A program made the position numbers and the translations under genes. The notes beneath the pieces were generated by a model, which saw nothing but the letters and a program-made list of their open reading frames with translations, did not search any database and was not told the DNA's origin. Below are positions 2,389 through 39,964 of a stretch of 48,253 nt of DNA, piece after piece; positions within the stretch are counted from its first letter, which is position 1; each line of letters begins with the position of its first letter. The stretch lies in contig WFMW01000045.1 of NCBI GenBank assembly GCA_015488885.1, positions 1 to 48,253 on the forward strand, in the 5' to 3' direction. This DNA comes from Gammaproteobacteria bacterium. Lineage in GTDB: Bacteria; Pseudomonadota; Gammaproteobacteria; SZUA-229.

Positions 2389-2844
2389 TAATTAACCCTT
2401 TTGTTGTGTTTGATACATTAAATTAAGCGCTAAAAGTAAATGCTAATTTATCATACATGAATGACCAGCACATATTCATTAAATATTTAACATTAGCTTA
2501 AGTTTCCCCGAAAATTTGAATTTTGTCAAAATATTCAATTACTTCCAGAAATAACTGGGAGAACAGCCCCGTTTACTGACGCCTGTCTTATATAAAATCT
2601 CCTATTATTCAATATGTTATTACTAAAACGGATAAAAAGAATAGTTAATGAACACAATGTTATAATAAAACCTGTCAATTACTTAATGGCAATATGCTTA
2701 ATGGCAATAGATTAATTGAGTAAAATCAAGGTATTTATTCTATCAATAAATAAACTATGTCTTCTTAGACGTCATGTTTCAACATGCTACACAAAAAACG
2801 TTGAAAAATTAAAATTAACATTATCCAATTATAGGGAACCGGTC
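2389..2844. other. divergent intergenic region without a gene
   Basis: This 456-base A+T-rich stretch separates the divergent SCP2-like gene and the DUF1451 gene. A plus-strand frame stays open from a TTG at 2716 into the DUF1451 gene, but that upstream peptide is not conserved with the paralogue at 9277-9792. A near-exact 13-base repeat, CTTAATGGCAATA, occurs at about 2682-2694 and 2697-2709. It must carry two promoters; I could not fix them with confidence. Confidence 0.5.
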
Positions 2845-3375
2845 ATGCACAATCACTTTTTTCAGCATTCACTCGATGTTGTCAGTAAAAATTATACAAA
2901 ACTTTTAAATAATGCCATGGCAAAATTTAACAGCCTGCAGCACGAATCTGGCAGCTCCTTTTTCAAAGCCATTGATATAGTGGGAAATGAACTTGCTGAT
3001 GCCGAAGAATTAAGTGTCGATGAAACCAGGCAGCTTGCGAGTAGCTTAAAAAATGATTTAAGCAGTGCAGCGGAATATCTTAAATCGAATAAAGATGATT
3101 TAAAAAGCTGGTTGGATTTAGATGTTACTATTATTGAAAAAACGCTATTGAATGCTTTTCTCGATGCTGCCGATAAAACCACTGTCGAACTTTCTCAACT
3201 ACAGACCGATGCCATCATGGCTGAATATAAAAGTGGTGAATTAATTGGTATAGCTATCTTAAAGTGTGATAACTGTGGCGAGTTATTACATTTTCATAAA
3301 CCTTCACGTATTCCACCCTGCCCCAAATGTCAGCATAGTCATTTTCATCGTTTTATACCATCAATAACAGAGTGA
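2845..3375 (+). CDS. zinc-ribbon protein, DUF1451 / YbeL family (copy 1)
   Basis: The 176-residue cytoplasmic protein has an all-helical N-terminal two thirds and a C-terminal zinc ribbon with two CxxC knuckles (CDNCGELLHFHKPSRIPPCPKC), the hallmark of the YbeL/DUF1451 family. The molecular function of the family is not known. The ATG at 2845 is chosen over the longer TTG-started frame (2716) because AGGG sits about 10 bases upstream and because the size then matches the paralogue at 9277-9792. The two copies share the order ETDAVRL/DETRQLA, LKSWLDLD/LKDWLGFE, KTTV and the zinc ribbon. Its stop is 8 bases from the convergent stop of the histidine kinase. Confidence 0.85.
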   Translation: MHNHFFQHSLDVVSKNYTKLLNNAMAKFNSLQHESGSSFFKAIDIVGNELADAEELSVDETRQLASSLKNDLSSAAEYLKSNKDDLKSWLDLDVTIIEKTLLNAFLDAADKTTVELSQLQTDAIMAEYKSGELIGIAILKCDNCGELLHFHKPSRIPPCPKCQHSHFHRFIPSITE

Positions 3376-5871: not shown

Positions 5872-5922
5872 CCGCCAAATATAAAAACGCCCCATAAAAC
5901 GGGGCGTTTTTATATTTGGCGG
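5872..5922 (-). terminator. rho-independent terminator, 22-bp perfect palindrome overlapping the tRNA 3' end
   Basis: Bases 5872-5893 and 5901-5922 are a perfect 22-bp inverted repeat around a 7-base loop. The core on the minus strand is CGCCCC-loop-GGGGCG followed by TTTTTAT, a standard intrinsic terminator for the tRNA. The A-tract on the other side makes it usable from both directions. Unusually, the stem continues past the U-tract so that its upstream arm contains the CCA end and first acceptor-stem bases of the tRNA (5917-5922). Confidence 0.85.
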
Positions 5923-6006
5923 AAGAGGAGGGATTCGAACCCTCGATGGGCGTAAACCCATGCCAGTTTTCAAGACTGGTGCTTTCAACCGCTCAGCCAC
6001 CCTTCC
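5917..6006 (-). tRNA. tRNA-Ser (anticodon UGA)
   Basis: The minus strand gives a 90-base class II tRNA with encoded CCA. The acceptor stem is GGAAGGG paired with CTCTTCC (one G-U). The D arm GGCTGAGCGGTTGAAAGC is typical of tRNA-Ser. The anticodon stem CCAGT/ACTGG closes loop CTTGAAA with anticodon TGA. A long variable arm (GCATGGG...CCCATC) and T arm GAGGG-TTCGAATC-CCTC follow. It decodes UCA and related serine codons. Confidence 0.95.
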
Positions 6007-6390: not shown

Positions 6391-6493
6391 TCTCTTTATT
6401 AATACCGCCACAGTCATTTCAGGCTTGTTTTTAACCAATGATCTCGCTATAATCTGCCATATTCATGTCAAATTAACAGGAAAAGATGACATT

Positions 6494-7885
6494 ATGTCAT
6501 ACACCAACCATATCTCAATCAATCTACAAAGTGTTATTGATGCCACTGATAACGCTTTTGTTTTGATTGACGAAAATTATCAGATTGTCGCTGCGAACAA
6601 AGCCTACTGTAACGCCTATGGCGTTAATGAAGAAGAGATTATCGGCCAGAAATGTCATAAAATTTCTCATCACTCTTCGGTACCCTGCCACCTCAATAAT
6701 GAAGACTGCCCACATAAAGCCGTTTTTACCAGCAGAAAAGCCCATAATGTCCTACACATTCATTATGATCAGAACAATGAGGAGGAGCATGTACGCATAA
6801 AAGGCTCTCCAATTTATGGTACTGATGGTCAGTTATTTCTTGGTGAGGCTGTTTTCCCGGTAGCAAAATCGGATGATCTGGGTTGTGATCAGCAGCGAAT
6901 GCTTGGGACATCACCCGCCTTTCTTGCCTGTATTGAAGAAATGGCCAATGCAACTAGCTCTGATATGCCTGTTTTACTTAATGGTGAAAGCGGTGTTGGC
7001 AAAGAACTGGCCGCACAGTTCATCCATAAAAAATCCAGCCGAAAACACAATCCTTTTGTTTCTATCGATTGCGCCTCTATCTCTGAAGGCATTTTTGAAA
7101 GTGAATTATTCGGCCATGAACGTGGTGCCTTTACCGGTTGTGTTGGACGCCGACACGGCTTAATAGAATCAGCTGAAAACGGCACCCTGTTTCTTGATGA
7201 AATCGGCGAAATACCCCTGGCACTTCAGGGACGCCTGTTACGTGTACTGGAAACCGGTTACTACCGACGTCTGGGTGGACGTGAGGACATACATGCTAAC
7301 GTCCACTTCATCTGCGCAACCCACAGTCATTTAAGAAAAATGGTTGAACAGGGTAGCTTCCGTGCTGATCTTTACTACCGTATCGCAGGTATCTGTATCA
7401 CCATTCCACCATTAAGGGAACGTCGCCCGGATATTTCTCCACTGGTAAAAGCTATACTTGGAAAAAACCGAACAAGGATGGGAGGGCCTCCCCGCATTAC
7501 TGACGAAGCCCTGGCAGACCTGAATCAATATGATTATCCCGGCAATATTCGTGAGCTGAAAAACATTCTACAAAAAGCCACCTCATTAGCCACTAATGGC
7601 ATAATAGAAACGGACATGTTAAACCTGAATACACTGACTAACAGCTATACAGATTTGACGAATAGCAACGTAGAGTCGCCCGCAGCTTTCCACATCCATA
7701 GCCCCACGACCAATCGATCTTTAAATGACATAGAAGCCACACATATTGAATCTTTATTACATCAGTATGATGGCCACCGAGCAAAAGTTGCTGAAGAATT
7801 ACGCATTAGTGAGCGTACTTTATACCGCAAACTCAAGCAATATAATCTGCAAAATGTTGGCAAAAGAAGAATCGCTAATGCCTGA
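6494..7885 (+). CDS. PAS-domain sigma-54-dependent transcriptional activator (Fis-type HTH)
   Basis: The 463-residue product has three parts. An N-terminal PAS domain (~10-115) contains a Cys/His-rich insert, GQKCHKISHHSSVPC followed by EDCPHKA. An AAA+ sigma-54 interaction domain (~130-360) shows Walker A GESGVGKE, the loop ESELFGHERGAFTGC, Walker B GTLFLDEIGEIP and the arginine-rich PPLRERRPDI. A C-terminal Fis-type helix-turn-helix (VAEELRISERTLYRKLKQYNL) completes it. The ATG at 6494 is chosen over the upstream TTG at 6425 because AGGA lies 12 bases before it and the PAS begins directly after. The GAFTGA loop reads GAFTGC. No receiver domain is present, so the PAS with its Cys/His insert is the likely sensor (metal, heme or redox; inference). 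It converges with the 387-residue orphan gene. Confidence 0.9.
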   Translation: MSYTNHISINLQSVIDATDNAFVLIDENYQIVAANKAYCNAYGVNEEEIIGQKCHKISHHSSVPCHLNNEDCPHKAVFTSRKAHNVLHIHYDQNNEEEHVRIKGSPIYGTDGQLFLGEAVFPVAKSDDLGCDQQRMLGTSPAFLACIEEMANATSSDMPVLLNGESGVGKELAAQFIHKKSSRKHNPFVSIDCASISEGIFESELFGHERGAFTGCVGRRHGLIESAENGTLFLDEIGEIPLALQGRLLRVLETGYYRRLGGREDIHANVHFICATHSHLRKMVEQGSFRADLYYRIAGICITIPPLRERRPDISPLVKAILGKNRTRMGGPPRITDEALADLNQYDYPGNIRELKNILQKATSLATNGIIETDMLNLNTLTNSYTDLTNSNVESPAAFHIHSPTTNRSLNDIEATHIESLLHQYDGHRAKVAEELRISERTLYRKLKQYNLQNVGKRRIANA

Positions 7886-7943: not shown

Positions 7944-9107
7944 TCAACTGCTGCCCCAATAAGGGGTTTCAATCCCCTCGCCCAGGTCGGCATTAATTAA
8001 ACGCTTCCTGACTTCGAGTAATTTTTCAATTAATGCTGGTTCAGCTTTTTCATATTCTTCTGCATTGGGCTCACGTTTAACGACCACCCCCAGCAATTCA
8101 GTAATTGCATTGCCGATGGAGTTCTGGCTGATGGTAACGATGAGATCACCTTCATCATTACGGTAAATTAACTGTTTAAAGGCCGGTTGCCAGCGAATTA
8201 CATTGGCATATTTAGCATTATTAATACACTGGTCACGCACTTTTTTTGCAGCCCCCATGAAATCATTATTAAATAATAGAATGCGTTCAATCTGATCGGG
8301 GAAATATGCCTTTTCCGGCACCGGGGCATTACGCGTGGATACCTGTGAGAAGAAGGCGCGATAAAAATCCAGAAACCCTTTTAATACCTGATCATATTCA
8401 CGCCAGAAACAGATATCTTTAAGTGCGTCAACACCACCCTGAATTTTCCAGCTGGGCAGACCTTGCGGATAACCGGTGAGTTCGATTTTTGACGAACCTT
8501 TGCTGGTCTGTTTTAAAATATTAAAATTCAGTGAAGAGAAAAAATCGCTATAAACATCGCGCATATAGGACTGAAACAGACTGTTCTGACCACCATCGGT
8601 TAAATTTGGATTATTCTGGTCGGCCATGTCTGCCTTGCTTAGCCGGTTTTTATCAAATGCCATAAAATGGTTATGCAACATACGAATACTGGGCACTCCC
8701 GGCGATGTTAATGACCAGGTAGCATCCAGACTGGCTTCACCAGCGAGCAGTAATGTCTGTTCTGGATCAGGATAAATTTCAATCATATAGTTGATGAGTA
8801 CCTGATTCATCCGATTCCAGACTTTTTTAGTGGCTGTCGGTACCTGTGTGCGTCGTACCGGTCGCCCCAGCGGATCCAGTATCTTTTTAGAAGTATTATA
8901 GATAATTGACGTATCAAATTCATTGCTGTGCCCCAGCGCTTTTCGATACATCAATAAATTTTCAGGGTTCTTCAGCAGGCCATTATTATTTGCCAGGTCA
9001 TTAAGATTTTCTGTGCTGTTAAAAAATTCATTCGGTGCCATACCTTCAGGCACATCAAGTGGAATAGGACGAAACGGGGTAACAATTTGACGGGGGCCGA
9101 ATTGCAT
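7944..9107 (-). CDS. hypothetical protein, 387 residues, no recognised family
   Basis: This is a long, well-composed cytoplasmic-looking protein with no signal peptide, membrane helix or obvious nucleotide-binding motif. Noticeable blocks are PDPEQTLLLAGEASLDATWSL, VPSIRMLHNHFMAFD, LTGYPQGLPSWKIQGGVDAL, a helical FLDFYRAFFSQVS, and an acidic C-terminus ending in YWGSS. The HNHF block could be a ligand or metal site but does not fit the HNH nuclease signature. The ATG at 9107 has GGAG 8 bases upstream, supporting the start. It is convergent with the sigma-54 activator and upstream (on its own strand) lies the second DUF1451 gene, 169 bases away. I do not assign a function. Confidence 0.8.
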   Translation of the reverse strand: MQFGPRQIVTPFRPIPLDVPEGMAPNEFFNSTENLNDLANNNGLLKNPENLLMYRKALGHSNEFDTSIIYNTSKKILDPLGRPVRRTQVPTATKKVWNRMNQVLINYMIEIYPDPEQTLLLAGEASLDATWSLTSPGVPSIRMLHNHFMAFDKNRLSKADMADQNNPNLTDGGQNSLFQSYMRDVYSDFFSSLNFNILKQTSKGSSKIELTGYPQGLPSWKIQGGVDALKDICFWREYDQVLKGFLDFYRAFFSQVSTRNAPVPEKAYFPDQIERILLFNNDFMGAAKKVRDQCINNAKYANVIRWQPAFKQLIYRNDEGDLIVTISQNSIGNAITELLGVVVKREPNAEEYEKAEPALIEKLLEVRKRLINADLGEGIETPYWGSS

Positions 9108-9276
9108 AAAATTCTCCAGACAGATTTATGAAATATCGCTTACTATATACGAAACCAGCCCGATGCTAAAATCCCCAAAATGAATATATGCTAAAAAGTA
9201 GTTTATATGATATTCGCTGCTTTGATGAACTCTGTTTAAAACATCACTTACTACTATCGCTTACTTCTTAACCCGG

Positions 9277-9792
9277 CTATTTAAAATTCCGATGAAAATC
9301 TGTGGCATGACATTTCGGGCATGGCGGTATTTTTCCGGCCCGGTGAAAATGAATTTTCTCACCGCAATTATCACAAACCAGTGTGCCAGGACCGACAACT
9401 TCACCAGTATGATAAACTGAATGGCTGGCTTTTTCTTTTAAGGCAAGCAGAGCAACAGTGGTTTTATCGGCTGTTTTTAACAGGGCATCGAGAAATTCGT
9501 CTTTAAGAAAGGTGGTTTCAAACCCCAGCCAGTCTTTAAGCTCATAATCAGTTTCGGCCAGGTAATTAACTGCGTCATCCAGATCTCGTTTCAACCAGTC
9601 ACCTAACCTGACTGCATCAGTTTCAGAAACCTTTTCCAGTTTAATGGCCTTCGCCTGCGCATCATCAATTAACGCATGCAATAATGGCCGACTCTTGTGT
9701 TCAGCCTGATGAAAATCTTTCGCGACATCTTCATACATACTTTCATAGACTTCGCCAAGTACATCAATGGGATCATGCTGTGGTGTTTTCAT
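9277..9792 (-). CDS. zinc-ribbon protein, DUF1451 / YbeL family (copy 2)
   Basis: This 171-residue paralogue of the protein at 2845-3375 has the same helical N-terminal region and C-terminal zinc ribbon (CDNCGEKIHFHRAGKIPPCPKC followed by FHR). The ATG at 9792 is preferred to an in-frame TTG at 9807. It is more acidic in the helical part than copy 1 (YEDVAKDFHQAEH, ETDAVRLGDWLKRDLDDAV). Family function unknown. It lies upstream of the 387-residue orphan on the same strand and divergent from cbpA. Confidence 0.85.
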   Translation of the reverse strand: MKTPQHDPIDVLGEVYESMYEDVAKDFHQAEHKSRPLLHALIDDAQAKAIKLEKVSETDAVRLGDWLKRDLDDAVNYLAETDYELKDWLGFETTFLKDEFLDALLKTADKTTVALLALKEKASHSVYHTGEVVGPGTLVCDNCGEKIHFHRAGKIPPCPKCHATDFHRNFK

Positions 9793-9900
9793 TTTATTTT
9801 TCCGCAATGGTGAGATATAAAGAACCTCTGTTTAACTTAAAAACCACTTTCTATAATTAATGGTGGTGCTGTACTGATAATTCAAGAAACACATGTCTGA

Positions 9901-12943: not shown

Positions 12944-14294
12944 CTACTGGTGATTCCTGTTCCTGCTCTCTCTCCCATTGTCGCTGATCAGAGAACATAA
13001 CCAGTAAATTTTCTGCCAGAGCTTCATAAATAGGTTTCCGGCTTATCAGTTTTGATATGCCTGCGGCAATCAGCGCAGTTACCATCATCGCCAGTACCAG
13101 ATCCTGATTATCCGTCATTTCCATAACGATAACAAAGGAGGTGATGGGTGTCTGTACGACACCGGTAAAATAACCGACCATACCCAGTACCACCACAATG
13201 GAGCTTAATTCAGGTGGGAACAGGTGTGCCAGATCCGCACCCAGCGCGGCACCGCTGGCCAGTGAAGGTGCAAATAGACCACCGGGTAATGTCGTTAGAT
13301 AAGTGACAATGGTCGCAAGAATTTTATAGACAGGATACATCATCCCAATATCGGCATTACAACGTGTAGTGCCTGTACATATCACAATCTGTTTTGCTTC
13401 GAGATAGCCGGTTCCAAATGCCAGGCCATGGCTTAAATAACCTAACATAGCCATTACCAATCCAAAAACAAGGGCAATTTTTGCCCAGTGTTGCGGCATC
13501 AAAGGGGCAAGTTTTTTTGAGCCTTCGATGAGAATGCGACTGAAAATACCACCCAGTAAGCCACCTGATACCCCGCAGATAATTGCGATTAGCCAGACCC
13601 AGCTAAAATCTATATTTGCCGGTGAAATACCATAATAATGGTAATTGTCGTAATGCACGACAACTGCCGCCATGCCAGCAAGGACGATGCCTATCATCAT
13701 CATGCCGTTATTTCGCCGGTCATAGGAACGCGCCAGTTCTTCGATAGCAAACATAATGCCTGCCACCGGGGTATTGAAGGCAGCAGCAATACCTGCACCG
13801 CCACCAGTAAGAATAAGCCCACGTTCGATATAACTCGCCGGTAAATGTGTATATCGACCTAACGAATGCATGATCGCTGCGCCCAGATGAACGGTCGGAC
13901 CTTCACGCCCCATTGACCCACCAACTGCCAGCGCCATCACTGTCATGACCACCTTACCTACTACCATACGCATAGAAAGCAGGCGGTTACTCAGACCGCC
14001 GCCGGACTCACCCAGTGAGATTAATACCTGGGGAATACCGCTACCTTCTGCCCCGCTAAAATATTTGCGGGTTAGAAAAACCCCTAAAACAAAACCCGCC
14101 GGGGTAAGCAGAAAAGGGATATAGGGATTCCAGGCGAATATTGAGCGATAAAAAAGATCGGCCTTGCCACTGGTAATTGCGAATACGGCCGCTACCACAC
14201 CAACTAAAATTGCCCCGCCCCAGGAGACAAAATGAATGTAGAGCATTTCAGGACGCAGAAAACGATATTTTATTTGACGGGTATGACGACGCAT
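12927..14294 (-). CDS. ClC-family chloride channel / H+-Cl- antiporter
   Basis: The 455-residue protein has the four chloride-selectivity segments of the ClC fold: GSGIPQ (84-89), GREGP with the external gating glutamate (E131), GGGAGIAAAFNTPVAGIMFAIEE (with E186 equivalent to the internal proton glutamate of E. coli ClC-ec1), and the later GGLFAPSLASGAALG segment. Both glutamates suggest H+/Cl- exchange rather than a pure channel. There are no C-terminal CBS domains. In enterobacteria such exchangers help in acid stress. It is directly upstream of, and overlaps, the Rof-like gene. Confidence 0.92.
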   Translation of the reverse strand: MRRHTRQIKYRFLRPEMLYIHFVSWGGAILVGVVAAVFAITSGKADLFYRSIFAWNPYIPFLLTPAGFVLGVFLTRKYFSGAEGSGIPQVLISLGESGGGLSNRLLSMRMVVGKVVMTVMALAVGGSMGREGPTVHLGAAIMHSLGRYTHLPASYIERGLILTGGGAGIAAAFNTPVAGIMFAIEELARSYDRRNNGMMMIGIVLAGMAAVVVHYDNYHYYGISPANIDFSWVWLIAIICGVSGGLLGGIFSRILIEGSKKLAPLMPQHWAKIALVFGLVMAMLGYLSHGLAFGTGYLEAKQIVICTGTTRCNADIGMMYPVYKILATIVTYLTTLPGGLFAPSLASGAALGADLAHLFPPELSSIVVVLGMVGYFTGVVQTPITSFVIVMEMTDNQDLVLAMMVTALIAAGISKLISRKPIYEALAENLLVMFSDQRQWEREQEQESPVDEIEK

Positions 14295-14328
14295 AACCCT
14301 GATTATACCTGATTAATATCGCAAACGC

Positions 14329-17300
14329 TTAATATAGAAACACAACCTGATTATGACCAAAATTTTTATACAGCCGGGTTAATAATTCATCAGAGGGTGA
14401 AACCTGCCAGCTATCACCAAGTTTTATCCGCGAACGACTGGCACCAGTATAATAGTTGATGGTTACTGGACAGGAACCATCTGTGTAAGTCTGTAATACA
14501 GCCATTAATTGCTGGGATATTTTTGTATCCGACCAGCTACCATTTGCCTGTGAACGATCAAATTTAATTTCCAGTCCGCGGGAGAATTTTTCACGCGCAC
14601 CGGTTATATCATAAATAGCACTGGCAGTAATACGGTAGGAAGCATTAAAGTCATCGTAACTCACACTGCCCTCAACAATGCACAGTTTGTCTTTTTCCAG
14701 TAAAGGTGAATATTGCGCATAAACTTCTTCATACATCACCATATCAATACGTGCCGTTCTGTCATCCAGGGTAGCCGTAACAATTTTACTGCCGCGACTG
14801 GTTTTCCGTACTCTTAACCCCATCAATAAACCCGCCAGGCAAACCTGTTTTTTATTCTTTCTATAACCACCATAGGTATTACTATTTTTTTCGGCTTCAG
14901 GAACCAGCGCCGGGACATCAACAAAACGACATTCAATAAAATGACTCAGCTCTTTTTCAAAACGAGTAATCGGGTGGCCAGTCAGATAAAGCCCGAGTAT
15001 TTCTTTCTCATTCGCCAGCCGAACATCATCCTCCCAGTCATCAACAATAATAACTGGTACCGGTGCATCACTCGGGCCATCATCCAGAGAAGCAAACATA
15101 TCATCCTGGCCCATGCTGGCATTTTTCTGATCCTGTTCAGCCAGCTGTACCGCATTACTTAAACTGGCAGTTAAACTTGCCCGGTTATTACCCAGAGTAT
15201 CCATTGCACCAGCCTTGATTAACGCCTCCATCACTCGTCGATTAACTTTCCGGGTATCGCTGCGCCGACAGAAATCGTATAAATCTGTAAACAAGCCATT
15301 GGCAGAACGTTCCTGAATAATACCTTCAATTGCTGCTTCACCTACACCTTTTAAAGCACCAAGTCCATAAATGATAGTATGTGCGTTGGCGATACTAAAA
15401 CGATAATCCGATTGATTTATATCCGGGGATAACACGGTTAGTTGCTGTGCATGACAATCTTCAATCAGAGTAACCACTTTATCCGTGTTATCCATATCAG
15501 CAGACATGACTGCGGCCATAAACTCAGCCGGATAATGGCATTTCAACCAGGCAGTCTGGTAAGACAGTAGCGCATAGGCGGCTGAGTGTGATTTATTGAA
15601 ACCATAGCCGGCAAATTTTTCCATCAGGTCAAAAATCATCGTAGCCAGATCTGCATCCACCCCACGTTTAACGGCACCTTCCATAAATAACACCCGTTGC
15701 TCGGCCATCACTTCGGGTTTTTTCTTACCCATGGCACGGCGTAACATATCCGCACCACCCAGGGTATAATTTGCCAGCACCTGGGCAATCTGCATGACCT
15801 GTTCCTGATACAATATAACGCCATAAGTCGGGGTCAACACCTGTTCAAGATCAGGGTGAAAATAATCAACCTGGGCACGCCCATGTTTGCGATTGATAAA
15901 ATCATCGACCATCCCCGACTGTAGTGGCCCCGGGCGGAACAATGCCACCAGCGCCACCACATCCTCAAAACTATCCGGTTTAAGGCGAGTGATCAGGTCT
16001 TTCATGCCACGTGATTCGAGTTGAAACACTGCGGTGGTGTTTGCCGCCTGCAACAGGGCAAAGGTTTCGGCATCATCCAGTGGTAACTGGTCAATCAGCA
16101 ACGCTGGTTCCGCTTCGCTTTCACGACGCCGGTTAATGTGTTTGACTGCCCAGTCAATAATGGTCAGAGTACGTAACCCCAGAAAGTCGAACTTGACCAG
16201 CCCCACCGCTTCCACATCCCCTTTGTCAAACTGGGTGACAATGCTATGCCCATCTTCCTCACAGTAGAGCGGGCAGAAATCGGTTAGCACAGTTGGCGAA
16301 ATCACCACACCACCAGCATGCTTACCTGCATTACGCGCCAGGCCCTCCAGGCTTAATGCCATATTGATAATACTGGCAACATCTTCTTCGTTGTCGTAGG
16401 CTGCTTTTAATTCTTCGGAAGTTTCCAGTGCCTTATTCAGCGTCATCCCCAGTTCAAACGGAATCAGCTTGGCAATGCGATCAACAAAACCATAAGGCTG
16501 CCCCATCACCCGACCCACATCACGCACCACAGCCTTCGCTGCCATAGTGCCATAGGTGATAATCTGTGAAACACTACGGCGGCCATAGGTTTGTGCAACA
16601 TAATCAATGACCCGATCGCGACCCTCCATACAGAAATCGACATCAAAGTCAGGCAATGAAACCCGCTCAGGATTGAGAAACCTTTCGAACAGCAGATCAA
16701 ATTTTAGCGGATCAAGATCGGTGATTTTTAAGGCATAAGCCACCAGTGAACCAGCGCCTGAACCCCGTCCCGGGCCGACCGGGATAGCATTATTTTTTGA
16801 CCACTGAATAAAATCGGCCACAATCAGGAAATAACCTGGAAACCCCATTTTAAGAATAACATCAAGCTCAATTTGCAAACGTTCCAGATAAGGCTGACGT
16901 TGCTGAGAGTAGTCTGCTGCTGTTTCATCAAGTAAGACTTTCAGTCGTTGTTCCAGCCCTTCATAAGCCAGACGGGTAAAATACTCATCTTCCGTCTCAC
17001 CTTCAGGAATCGGAAATTGCGGCAGGAAACTTTCTCCAAGCTTTATCTCGAAATTACAACGTCTGGCAATTTCGACAGTATTGGTCAGTGCTTCTGGAAT
17101 GTCAGCAAACAATTCCCGCATTTCTTCGGCGCTGCGTAAATATTGTTGCGGACTGTAATTTTTGCTGCGTCGTGGATCATCCAGTGTGCGCCCATCATGA
17201 ATACAGACACGCACTTCATGGGCATCAAATTCACTACTGTGTATAAAACGTACATCGTTGGTAGCCACAACCGGGGTATCGGTTTCCAGAGCCAGTCTAA

Positions 17301-38775: not shown

Positions 38776-39654
38776 TTATTTTTCTTCTGCTACTGCTGCT
38801 GTATCAGTTACTGCTGTATCTGCCGCCGCCATATCTTCTGTTTTGGCTTCAGCCCTGTCAGCATCCGGCTTTTTCTTCACGGCAACTTTTTTGGCCGCAG
38901 GTTTTTTGGCAGCAGATTTGGCTGACGATTTAACTTTACCGGTATCCGCATCATTACTGCGTTGTAAAACGGCTGAAGCACGGCCTTCAATCACAGCATC
39001 AGCAATACCTTCTGCATAAAGCTGTATGGCTTTTATGGCATCATCGTTACCAGGGATAACATAGTCAATACCTTCAGGTGAATTGTTCGAATCAACAACG
39101 CCAAAAACAGGAATACCCAGTGTATTTGCTTCCTGAACGGCAATATCTTCATGGCCCACATCAATCACAAAAACAGCATTGGGTAAACCTTTCATGTCCT
39201 TGATACCGCCAATCACTTTTTCCTTCTTCTCCATTTCACGCGTTAGCATTAACTGTTCTTTTTTATTCAACTGGTTAAAACCACCATTTTCGCTCATATC
39301 TTCCAGTTCTTTTAAACGCTGAATCGACTGACGAATGGTTTTATAATTGGTTAACATCCCACCTAACCAACGGTGGCTAACGTATGGCATACCACAACGC
39401 CTGGCTTCTTCGGCAATAATTTTGCGCGCCGCTCGTTTTGTACCAACAAACAGAATAGTGCCACGATCAGCAGCAATTTTACCAATTGCATTGGTGGCTT
39501 CAAGGTACAATGGCAGCGTTTTTTCCAGATTAATAATATGAATTTTGTTACGAGCTCCAAAAATGTACTCGGACATCATTGGATTCCAGAAACGGGTTTG
39601 GTGACCAAAGTGAACACCGGCTTCAAGCATCAGACGCATAGAAACGTTAGACAT
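38776..39654 (-). CDS. rpsB: 30S ribosomal protein S2 with long charged C-terminal tail
   Basis: The 292-residue protein contains the full S2 fold: [77 protein letters not shown], and [20 protein letters not shown]. coli S2 has 241 residues; here about 55 extra residues follow, first Lys/Ala-rich ([19 protein letters not shown]), then acidic and Ala-rich. AGGAGA 7 bases before the ATG (39662-39667) is a strong ribosome site. Confidence 0.96.
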
Positions 39655-39661
39655 TATATTT

Positions 39662-39704
39662 TCTCCTGTGGGGTTAGGCCTCCATATACCCCATATGATA
39701 ACCC
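39662..39704 (-). promoter_or_regulatory. rpsB leader hairpin, candidate S2 autoregulatory site
   Basis: On the minus strand GGGTTA (39704-39699) pairs with TAACCC (39676-39671) around ATATGGGGTATAT and GGAGGCC, directly before the AGGAGA site. S2 is known to repress its own rpsB-tsf mRNA in gammaproteobacteria through the leader; this structure is the natural candidate. The rest of the 310-base interval to map (39964) shows no gene. Confidence 0.45.
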
Positions 39705-39964
39705 TTCAGATTATTATTGATTAAATCTGAAAAGCACCCAATTCACATGTGACGGTATATGTGCGTATTTAAATAAGATATAGTTGCACTATGGAAACCG
39801 ATGAAGCAGCCATAAGGCACCTGTATCACGTTGTTACGTCAGCTTTTACTAACGCGTGCGCTTTATACCATAAAGCAGGAAAGATCACAACGTTTTAAAA
39901 TACAAATCTCGACAAGTATTAGCAATAAGCTATTGTTTTAATAAGTTATTATATAAAATACACT

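Follow-up and report, generated by a model that had tools for sequence, protein, structure and literature searches.

A predicted HIT-fold protein of Dsr/Apr-type sulfur-oxidising proteobacteria and its possible role as an APS:phosphate adenylyltransferase-like enzyme

Background

A 387-codon ORF lies between a sigma-54 activator gene and a gene for a DUF1451 protein on a gammaproteobacterial contig of 48,253 nucleotides (WFMW01000045.1), the whole of which is called the window here. The first-pass annotation described this ORF as long and intact with a good ribosome site, could name no family for its product and considered it a good candidate for a function not yet assigned. The question that the locus raises is what kind of protein this gene encodes and which reaction, if any, its predicted structure, its distribution and its neighbours point to.

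Results

The ORF is a real gene without a family model

The ORF was confirmed as a real gene and more than a chance reading frame, because it has a ribosome site and relatives that are under strong purifying selection. It opens with ATG, ends where it had been said to end and is preceded by GGAG, so the description of an intact 387-residue frame was accurate, as was its placing between the two flanking genes (Table 1). Reading the same interval on the plus strand gives 18 stops. In five pairwise comparisons silent differences were near saturation, with pS 0.77-0.94 against pN 0.10-0.19.

Table 1. Positions of the ORF, its conserved blocks and other features in the window
Feature	Position	Strand	Remarks
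ORF, 387 codons, ATG start	7944..9107	-	387-aa protein, 44.05 kDa, pI 6.07; predicted HIT fold; proposed APS:phosphate adenylyltransferase-like enzyme
GGAG ribosome-binding site	9114..9117 (9117-9114)	-	6 nt before the ATG at 9107; from sequence
Residues 123-131, GEASLDATW	8715..8741	-	8/9 invariant (83 sequences); at and after the end of predicted strand 118-125
Residues 140-148, SIRMLHNHF, proposed catalytic motif	8664..8690	-	Invariance; spacing compared with Apa2-like alignment; putative catalytic role
Residues 325-340, TISQNSIGNAITELLG, C-terminal conserved block	8088..8135	-	Alignment conservation
Sigma-54 activator	6425-7885	+	Convergent with the ORF; 58 nt between ends
DUF1451 protein	9277-9807	-	PF07295, E 4.8e-44; upstream of the ORF, same strand, gap 169 nt
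Second DUF1451-like zinc-ribbon protein	2716-3375	+	37% identical to the 9277-9807 (-) protein, which is the one of the two that the Pfam scan covered
tRNA-Ser(TGA)	5917-6006	-	
t44 RNA	39673-39783	-	Closely precedes the ORF at 38776-39654 (-), taken to be ribosomal protein S2

In the libraries searched, the product is a conserved protein without a family model. Its best matches in Pfam (E 0.053) and PHROGs (E 0.097) were not significant, NCBIfam and PADLOC gave zero matches, and a PDB sequence search gave nothing below E 0.3. When 44 family members were used as queries, the matches were scattered and below the cut-offs (best E 0.025 in Pfam and 0.0092 in NCBIfam). The earlier failure to name a family from sequence is borne out, and the ORF remains the good candidate that it was taken to be. 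Three other ideas were discarded. For a mobile or phage origin, plasmids gave no match, the single phage match (E 0.8) was a chance one and there was no viral relative; a defence role found no PADLOC match; and for sigma-54 control, candidate sites were no commoner than in shuffled sequence, and the gap ahead of the ORF contained none. The PAS domain of the neighbouring sigma-54 activator is rich in Cys and His (CHKISHHSSVPCHLNNEDCPHKA) and is possibly a metal or redox sensor.

Relatives and conservation

Relatives that are 66-85% identical were found at 57 loci in named genomes, 55 of them near full length (L067 and L074 are partial). The titles of these records, which include Sedimenticola, Thiolapillus, Thiohalocapsa, Rhodocyclaceae, Hydrogenophilales and Ca. 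Nitricoxidireducens, are mostly those of Gammaproteobacteria, which we took as the window's class. Two of the loci carry the titles Desulfobacterales (L029, 80% identical to the window protein) and Hyphomicrobiales (L066, 71%) and are possibly from mis-assigned bins. Searches of genomes listed matches for 21 of 58 relatives, for 42 of 369 genomes of the class (G124 counting with fragments and G145 with a broken copy), for 51 of 117 genomes of L045's family (among them several fragments and, in G490, a chance match) and for 31 of 398 genomes across the phylum, 27 of the latter being outside the class and those in G591, G653, G665 and G681 being partial. The 23 relatives examined from outside the class are 55-61% identical. 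Four genomes gave weak matches to profile positions 78-136 that are interrupted by one or two stops; three of these were read, at 12-15 bits, and the matches were taken as chance.

Across 83 aligned sequences 96 positions are unchanged, as counted from the position list. The fixed blocks are GEASLD, S140-x-R-M-x-H145-N-H147-F, N168-L-x-D and most of TISQNSIGNAITE. The two blocks that had been noted by eye as conserved-looking, VPSIRMLHNHFMAFD and SLTSPGVPS, are both present in the protein and overlap within one conserved stretch.

Predicted fold

The structure was predicted from 44 sequences (model 1, pLDDT 85) and from 58 sequences (model 2, pLDDT 87.0, pTM 0.89). With both models Foldseek gave nothing below E 0.001. 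Its top three for model 1 were CDP-diacylglycerol pyrophosphatase, a GalT-like protein and a uridylyltransferase, while for model 2 CDP-diacylglycerol pyrophosphatase, which we take to be a HIT-fold protein, came first with probability 0.80 and ranks 2-50 were dominated by beta-lactamases and penicillin-binding proteins with probabilities no higher than 0.08. VIA-align, which re-ranks Foldseek's own candidates, placed HIT-superfamily chains first for both models with similar lists. For model 2, rows 1-41 (Z 10.0-4.3) consisted of 34 HIT-superfamily chains, 5 spliceosome chains that are presumably CWF19-like, one DUF4931 protein and one uncharacterised protein; the first clearly unrelated row, an enzyme, was row 42, where Z drops from 4.3 to 3.2. 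At the top, with Z 10.0, stood the Apa2 phosphorylase 4i5t, aligned over 216 residues at 4.8 A, and two spliceosome chains. According to the VIA-align notes a best Z of 7-8 is typical for models without a clear match or true relative, and so Z 10 is a moderate excess. It is the uniformity of the list that carries the argument for the predicted fold: by VIA-align the predicted model falls within the HIT superfamily, and Foldseek alone was not significant.

Profile searches added nothing to this. Among the 44 members there was no match to PF01230 (classical HIT) even at E 1, and the Apa2 domains PF19327 and PF09830 were not matched in the family. Profile comparison with six Apa2-like proteins was negative (hhalign probability 0.2%), and homology to them at the sequence level was also unsupported with 30 divergent rows or with cut-out halves. 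Any relation to Apa2 must therefore rest on predicted structure, and we do not claim a C-terminal ISxN resemblance to Apa2-like proteins that was seen by eye, given the negative profile comparisons.

The putative active site

S140, R142, H145 and H147 are invariant in 83 of 83 sequences. Neither published-type motif fits: instead of the classical HIT motif HxHxHxx the protein has M143-L-H145-N-H147-F, and the GalT-branch motif HxHxQ would need Gln at position 149, which is I, M or V, and never Gln, in the sequences printed. Apa2-like proteins have, in our alignment, a Ser five residues before the second His of their motif, and this second His is the nucleophile. Since S140 and H145 have the same spacing, H145 is the likely nucleophile; the spacing was also compared with that of the HINT/GalT motif. 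In this Ser-anchored register, which we infer, H147 would take the place of the Gln or third His and the first His would be replaced by Met.

Co-occurrence with sulfur oxidation genes

Within the class the gene is a marker of some Dsr/Apr oxidisers, and its carriers mostly have Sat as well. The aprA gene was found in 109 of the 369 class genomes, namely in 37 of 42 carriers of the gene and in 72 of 327 non-carriers (Fisher p 4e-17, a value that ignores shared ancestry, the genomes not being independent). Counted by family, aprA occurs in the sampled genomes of 22 of the 24 families with carriers. Starting from 35 of the 57 named loci, 35 genomes were reached, at least 4 of which repeat the first sample; aprA is present in 29 of the 35 and absent in 6. 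The five class carriers without an aprA match are G124 (fragments of the gene only), G235 (64% complete), G351, G253 and G261, of which the last two were both scored 100% complete. Among the class carriers and the genomes of the named loci, occurrence with APS reductase is thus a strong tendency with exceptions (5 and 6, respectively), some of them in incomplete genomes. Conversely, 72 of the 109 aprA genomes do not have the gene.

The dsrA gene was found in 40 of 42 carriers and, among aprA genomes that lack the gene studied here, in 35 of 37. Sat was matched in 40 of 42 carriers, the two without a match being G261 and G324, and in 37 of 38 comparison genomes, and this rules out replacement of Sat as the rule. 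PF09830 was matched in 3 of 42 carriers and 5 of 37 others. One carrier genome has, at L196 1498-2514, a 338-aa protein with a long N-terminus and weak Ap4A_phos_N and ATP_transf matches.

Neighbouring genes

The first-pass annotation had proposed to test whether the activator and the DUF1451 protein recur beside orthologues. They are not lasting partners: among 68 clustered loci the DUF1451 cluster occurs in the window only, and the activator cluster occurs at 4 loci and is adjacent in the window only. The orthologues are mostly in varying contexts and so the idea fails. No neighbour is general over the 68 loci, the commonest being a DsrC-like protein (PF04358) and an unidentified 263-aa cluster, at 8 loci each. 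A DsrC-like neighbour was found at 12 of 96 loci (105 minus 9 with identical C-termini) against 2.3 expected from a count of 216 such genes across 40 of the 42 carriers (123 Mb); several of these loci being close relatives, the excess is only supportive. Most loci have no sulfur neighbour, and none of 12 reference proteins of the clusters described below was found in 25 loci of the phylum search, 23 of which are from other classes. The informative context is that of a minority of other genomes, where an APS-reductase region or adenylate kinase is nearby, together with the co-occurrence with aprA and dsrA.

In two families the gene lies in or beside the APS-reductase region, by different arrangements. 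At L026, in the window's own family, the order is phosphofructokinase, adenylate kinase, H+-pyrophosphatase, PF06155, histidine kinase, the gene, DUF4202, aprB and aprA; the phosphofructokinase, adenylate kinase, H+-pyrophosphatase, the gene, aprB and aprA share one strand, and aprA is cut by the contig end. L043, in the same family, starts inside the H+-pyrophosphatase gene and continues with the gene, aprB and aprA. The window organism itself has phosphofructokinase, adenylate kinase, H+-pyrophosphatase, Sat, aprB and aprA on another contig (C57, locus L145), the gene being on C45. At L026 and L043 the gene occupies the interval that holds Sat in the window organism's own genome. The DUF4202 gene of L026 (9350-9949) immediately follows the gene and precedes aprB, and a PF06155/ThiS-like protein is found in the apr regions of L026 and L145 and also, by clustering, of L043.

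In the second family (f110), L109 has cysS, a phosphoesterase, phosphofructokinase (PF00365, probably of the PPi type), adenylate kinase, the gene and H+-pyrophosphatase in this order, and its genome, G261, has neither an aprA nor a sat match. At L107 phosphofructokinase and the gene precede aprA, aprB and sat, which are encoded on the opposite strand, and the stretch contains no adenylate kinase. All of these neighbours, from phosphofructokinase, adenylate kinase and H+-pyrophosphatase to aprA, aprB and sat, are found at L108, and there the gene is broken: the damaged copy (G145 C1, about 13394-14548) lies between adenylate kinase and H+-pyrophosphatase, with sat and aprBA intact nearby, in a single-contig genome of 1.45 Mb. 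In a third family (L121, G353) adenylate kinase is encoded 1.3 kb upstream in the same orientation, and a single gene on the opposite strand separates the two. The gene and aprA are on one contig in seven class genomes, within 6 kb of each other in 3 (two of them in f110) and more than 400 kb apart in 4.

Discussion

Proposed reaction

The protein is predicted to be a HIT-fold nucleotidyltransferase of Dsr/Apr-type sulfur-oxidising proteobacteria. Since such an enzyme near adenylate kinase and aprBA fits the step catalysed by APAT ("ADP sulfurylase"), we propose that it works like APAT, converting APS and phosphate to ADP and sulfate, with adenylate kinase recycling the ADP, and we put the probability of this reading at a little under 60%. 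In the APS reductase/APAT/adenylate kinase route APAT transfers AMP from APS to phosphate, and the ADP is recycled by adenylate kinase (PMC8551704, PMC8232776). APS reductase makes APS from sulfite and AMP, and the invariant H145 would attack the alpha-phosphate of APS so that sulfate is released and AMP is held on the enzyme. Phosphate would then take the AMP from the enzyme to give ADP, and adenylate kinase would convert 2 ADP to ATP and AMP, the AMP going back to APS reductase. Sulfite oxidation would in this way have a phosphate-dependent exit that runs in parallel with Sat, which depends on PPi. The H+-pyrophosphatase and phosphofructokinase nearby could set a balance of PPi and phosphate that favours the phosphate route over Sat. 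Relatives in other classes may have the same function. Several results speak against the APAT-like reading: the weak Foldseek list, the negative profile comparison with Apa2-like proteins, the presence of Sat in most carriers, the carriers without aprA, the aprA genomes without the gene, the many loci that have no sulfur neighbour, the failure to find a match in the genome taken as T. denitrificans ATCC 25259, and the broken gene of G145, where sat and aprA are intact.

A further-reaching version, which we hold only tentatively and think somewhat more apt to be wrong than right, is that these proteins form a separate HIT-fold branch outside Pfam and NCBIfam, with no detectable sequence relation to Apa2-like proteins, and allow roughly one third (37/109) of the sampled aprA genomes of the class to end sulfur oxidation with a phosphate-dependent, PPi-free step that yields ATP. 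Such a step could have gone unnoticed because Sat is usually present too.

Alternative explanations

A HIT-fold enzyme could act on APS without phosphate, either as an APS hydrolase (giving AMP and sulfate) or as an APS:ammonia adenylyltransferase that keeps APS low, since HIT enzymes that hydrolyse or ammonolyse APS exist and the fold, the co-occurrence and the clusters would fit equally. We consider this unlikely, as adenylate kinase near the gene at some loci fits an ADP product better than AMP and the bond energy would probably be wasted by a hydrolase. Hardly different in its chances, and likewise unlikely, is an enzyme for another nucleotide (Ap4A, a nucleotide sugar or capped RNA) that is linked to sulfur oxidisers by lifestyle only; the best structural matches, which are Apa2, the spliceosome chains and uridylyltransferase or GalT-like proteins, would agree with it, as would the carriers without aprA and the varying context of most loci, but the gene's place in or beside the apr, adenylate kinase and H+-pyrophosphatase region of two families, by different arrangements, speaks against it.

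Less probable still is a non-catalytic HIT-fold protein that senses APS or AMP or regulates Apr or Sat. The Met in place of the first His and the extreme conservation of whole blocks could be read in this way, but the four invariant residues of the putative motif are kept as those of an active site would be. Finally, the structural match may be misleading and the protein not HIT-like at all, which we regard as very improbable. Such an error would accord with Foldseek's lack of a match below E 0.001, the mostly unrelated low-probability enzymes in the list of the better model, the negative profile comparison with the Apa2-like set, VIA-align's re-ranking of Foldseek candidates and the tentative identification of several leading structures; it is opposed by the HIT-superfamily chains that VIA-align puts first in both models, by the fall in Z at the first unrelated row and by Foldseek's own first hit, presumably a HIT-fold protein. 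The APAT-like enzyme therefore stays the reading that we prefer. If it is correct, a conserved protein without a family model gains a name, a gene for the phosphate-dependent step would make both routes testable, and the step would bear on differences in PPi and ATP yield between sulfur oxidisers.

Comparison with known systems

Yeast Apa2/Apa1-type enzymes also have ADP sulfurylase activity. As Ap4A phosphorylases (PF19327 and PF09830) they share with our protein the joint-best fold match and the Ser five residues before the second motif His, and differ in that there is no HMM or profile match and the motif is S-x-x-M-x-H-x-H here against S-Q-x-H-x-H-x-Q in Apa2-like proteins. Classical HIT proteins (Hint, Fhit, PF01230) share the core fold (Z about 4-8), but this protein, with 387 residues, has much extra sequence.

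APAT has a subunit of about 41 kDa and a GalT-like/HIT relationship, and the present protein, at 44 kDa, is similar in size. The proposed reaction, the position in the pathway and the adenylate kinase partner would also be common to both. The genome that we take as T. denitrificans ATCC 25259 (G499) gave no match to the gene and has no PF09830; it belongs to the 117-genome set of L045's family, the search across which had a positive control, and a second search of G499 had none. Since the published work reportedly used T. denitrificans strain RT (Brueser, Selmer and Dahl 2000), our family may despite this be identical with published APAT.

The full texts searched yielded no published APAT sequence, locus tag or gene in sulfur oxidisers. 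They cite APAT (adenylylsulfate:phosphate adenylyltransferase) from that 2000 work (PMC8232776, PMC6382920), give its gene name as Apt in a figure legend (PMC8780430) and name it as one of two enzymes that can complete the oxidation of sulfite (PMC8551704, PMC8232776). In three genome papers on sulfur oxidisers (PMC4287430, PMC4136832, PMC4612132) sulfite oxidation is credited to APS reductase together with Sat, and their main text does not contain the word stem 'adenylyl'.

The other enzyme to be compared is ATP sulfurylase (Sat, TIGR00339). Like the proposed enzyme it takes APS to sulfate, and in the apr cluster of the window organism it takes the place that our gene has at L026 and L043; it differs in using PPi, in a fold that is unrelated to the HIT fold, and in being present side by side with our gene in nearly all carriers.
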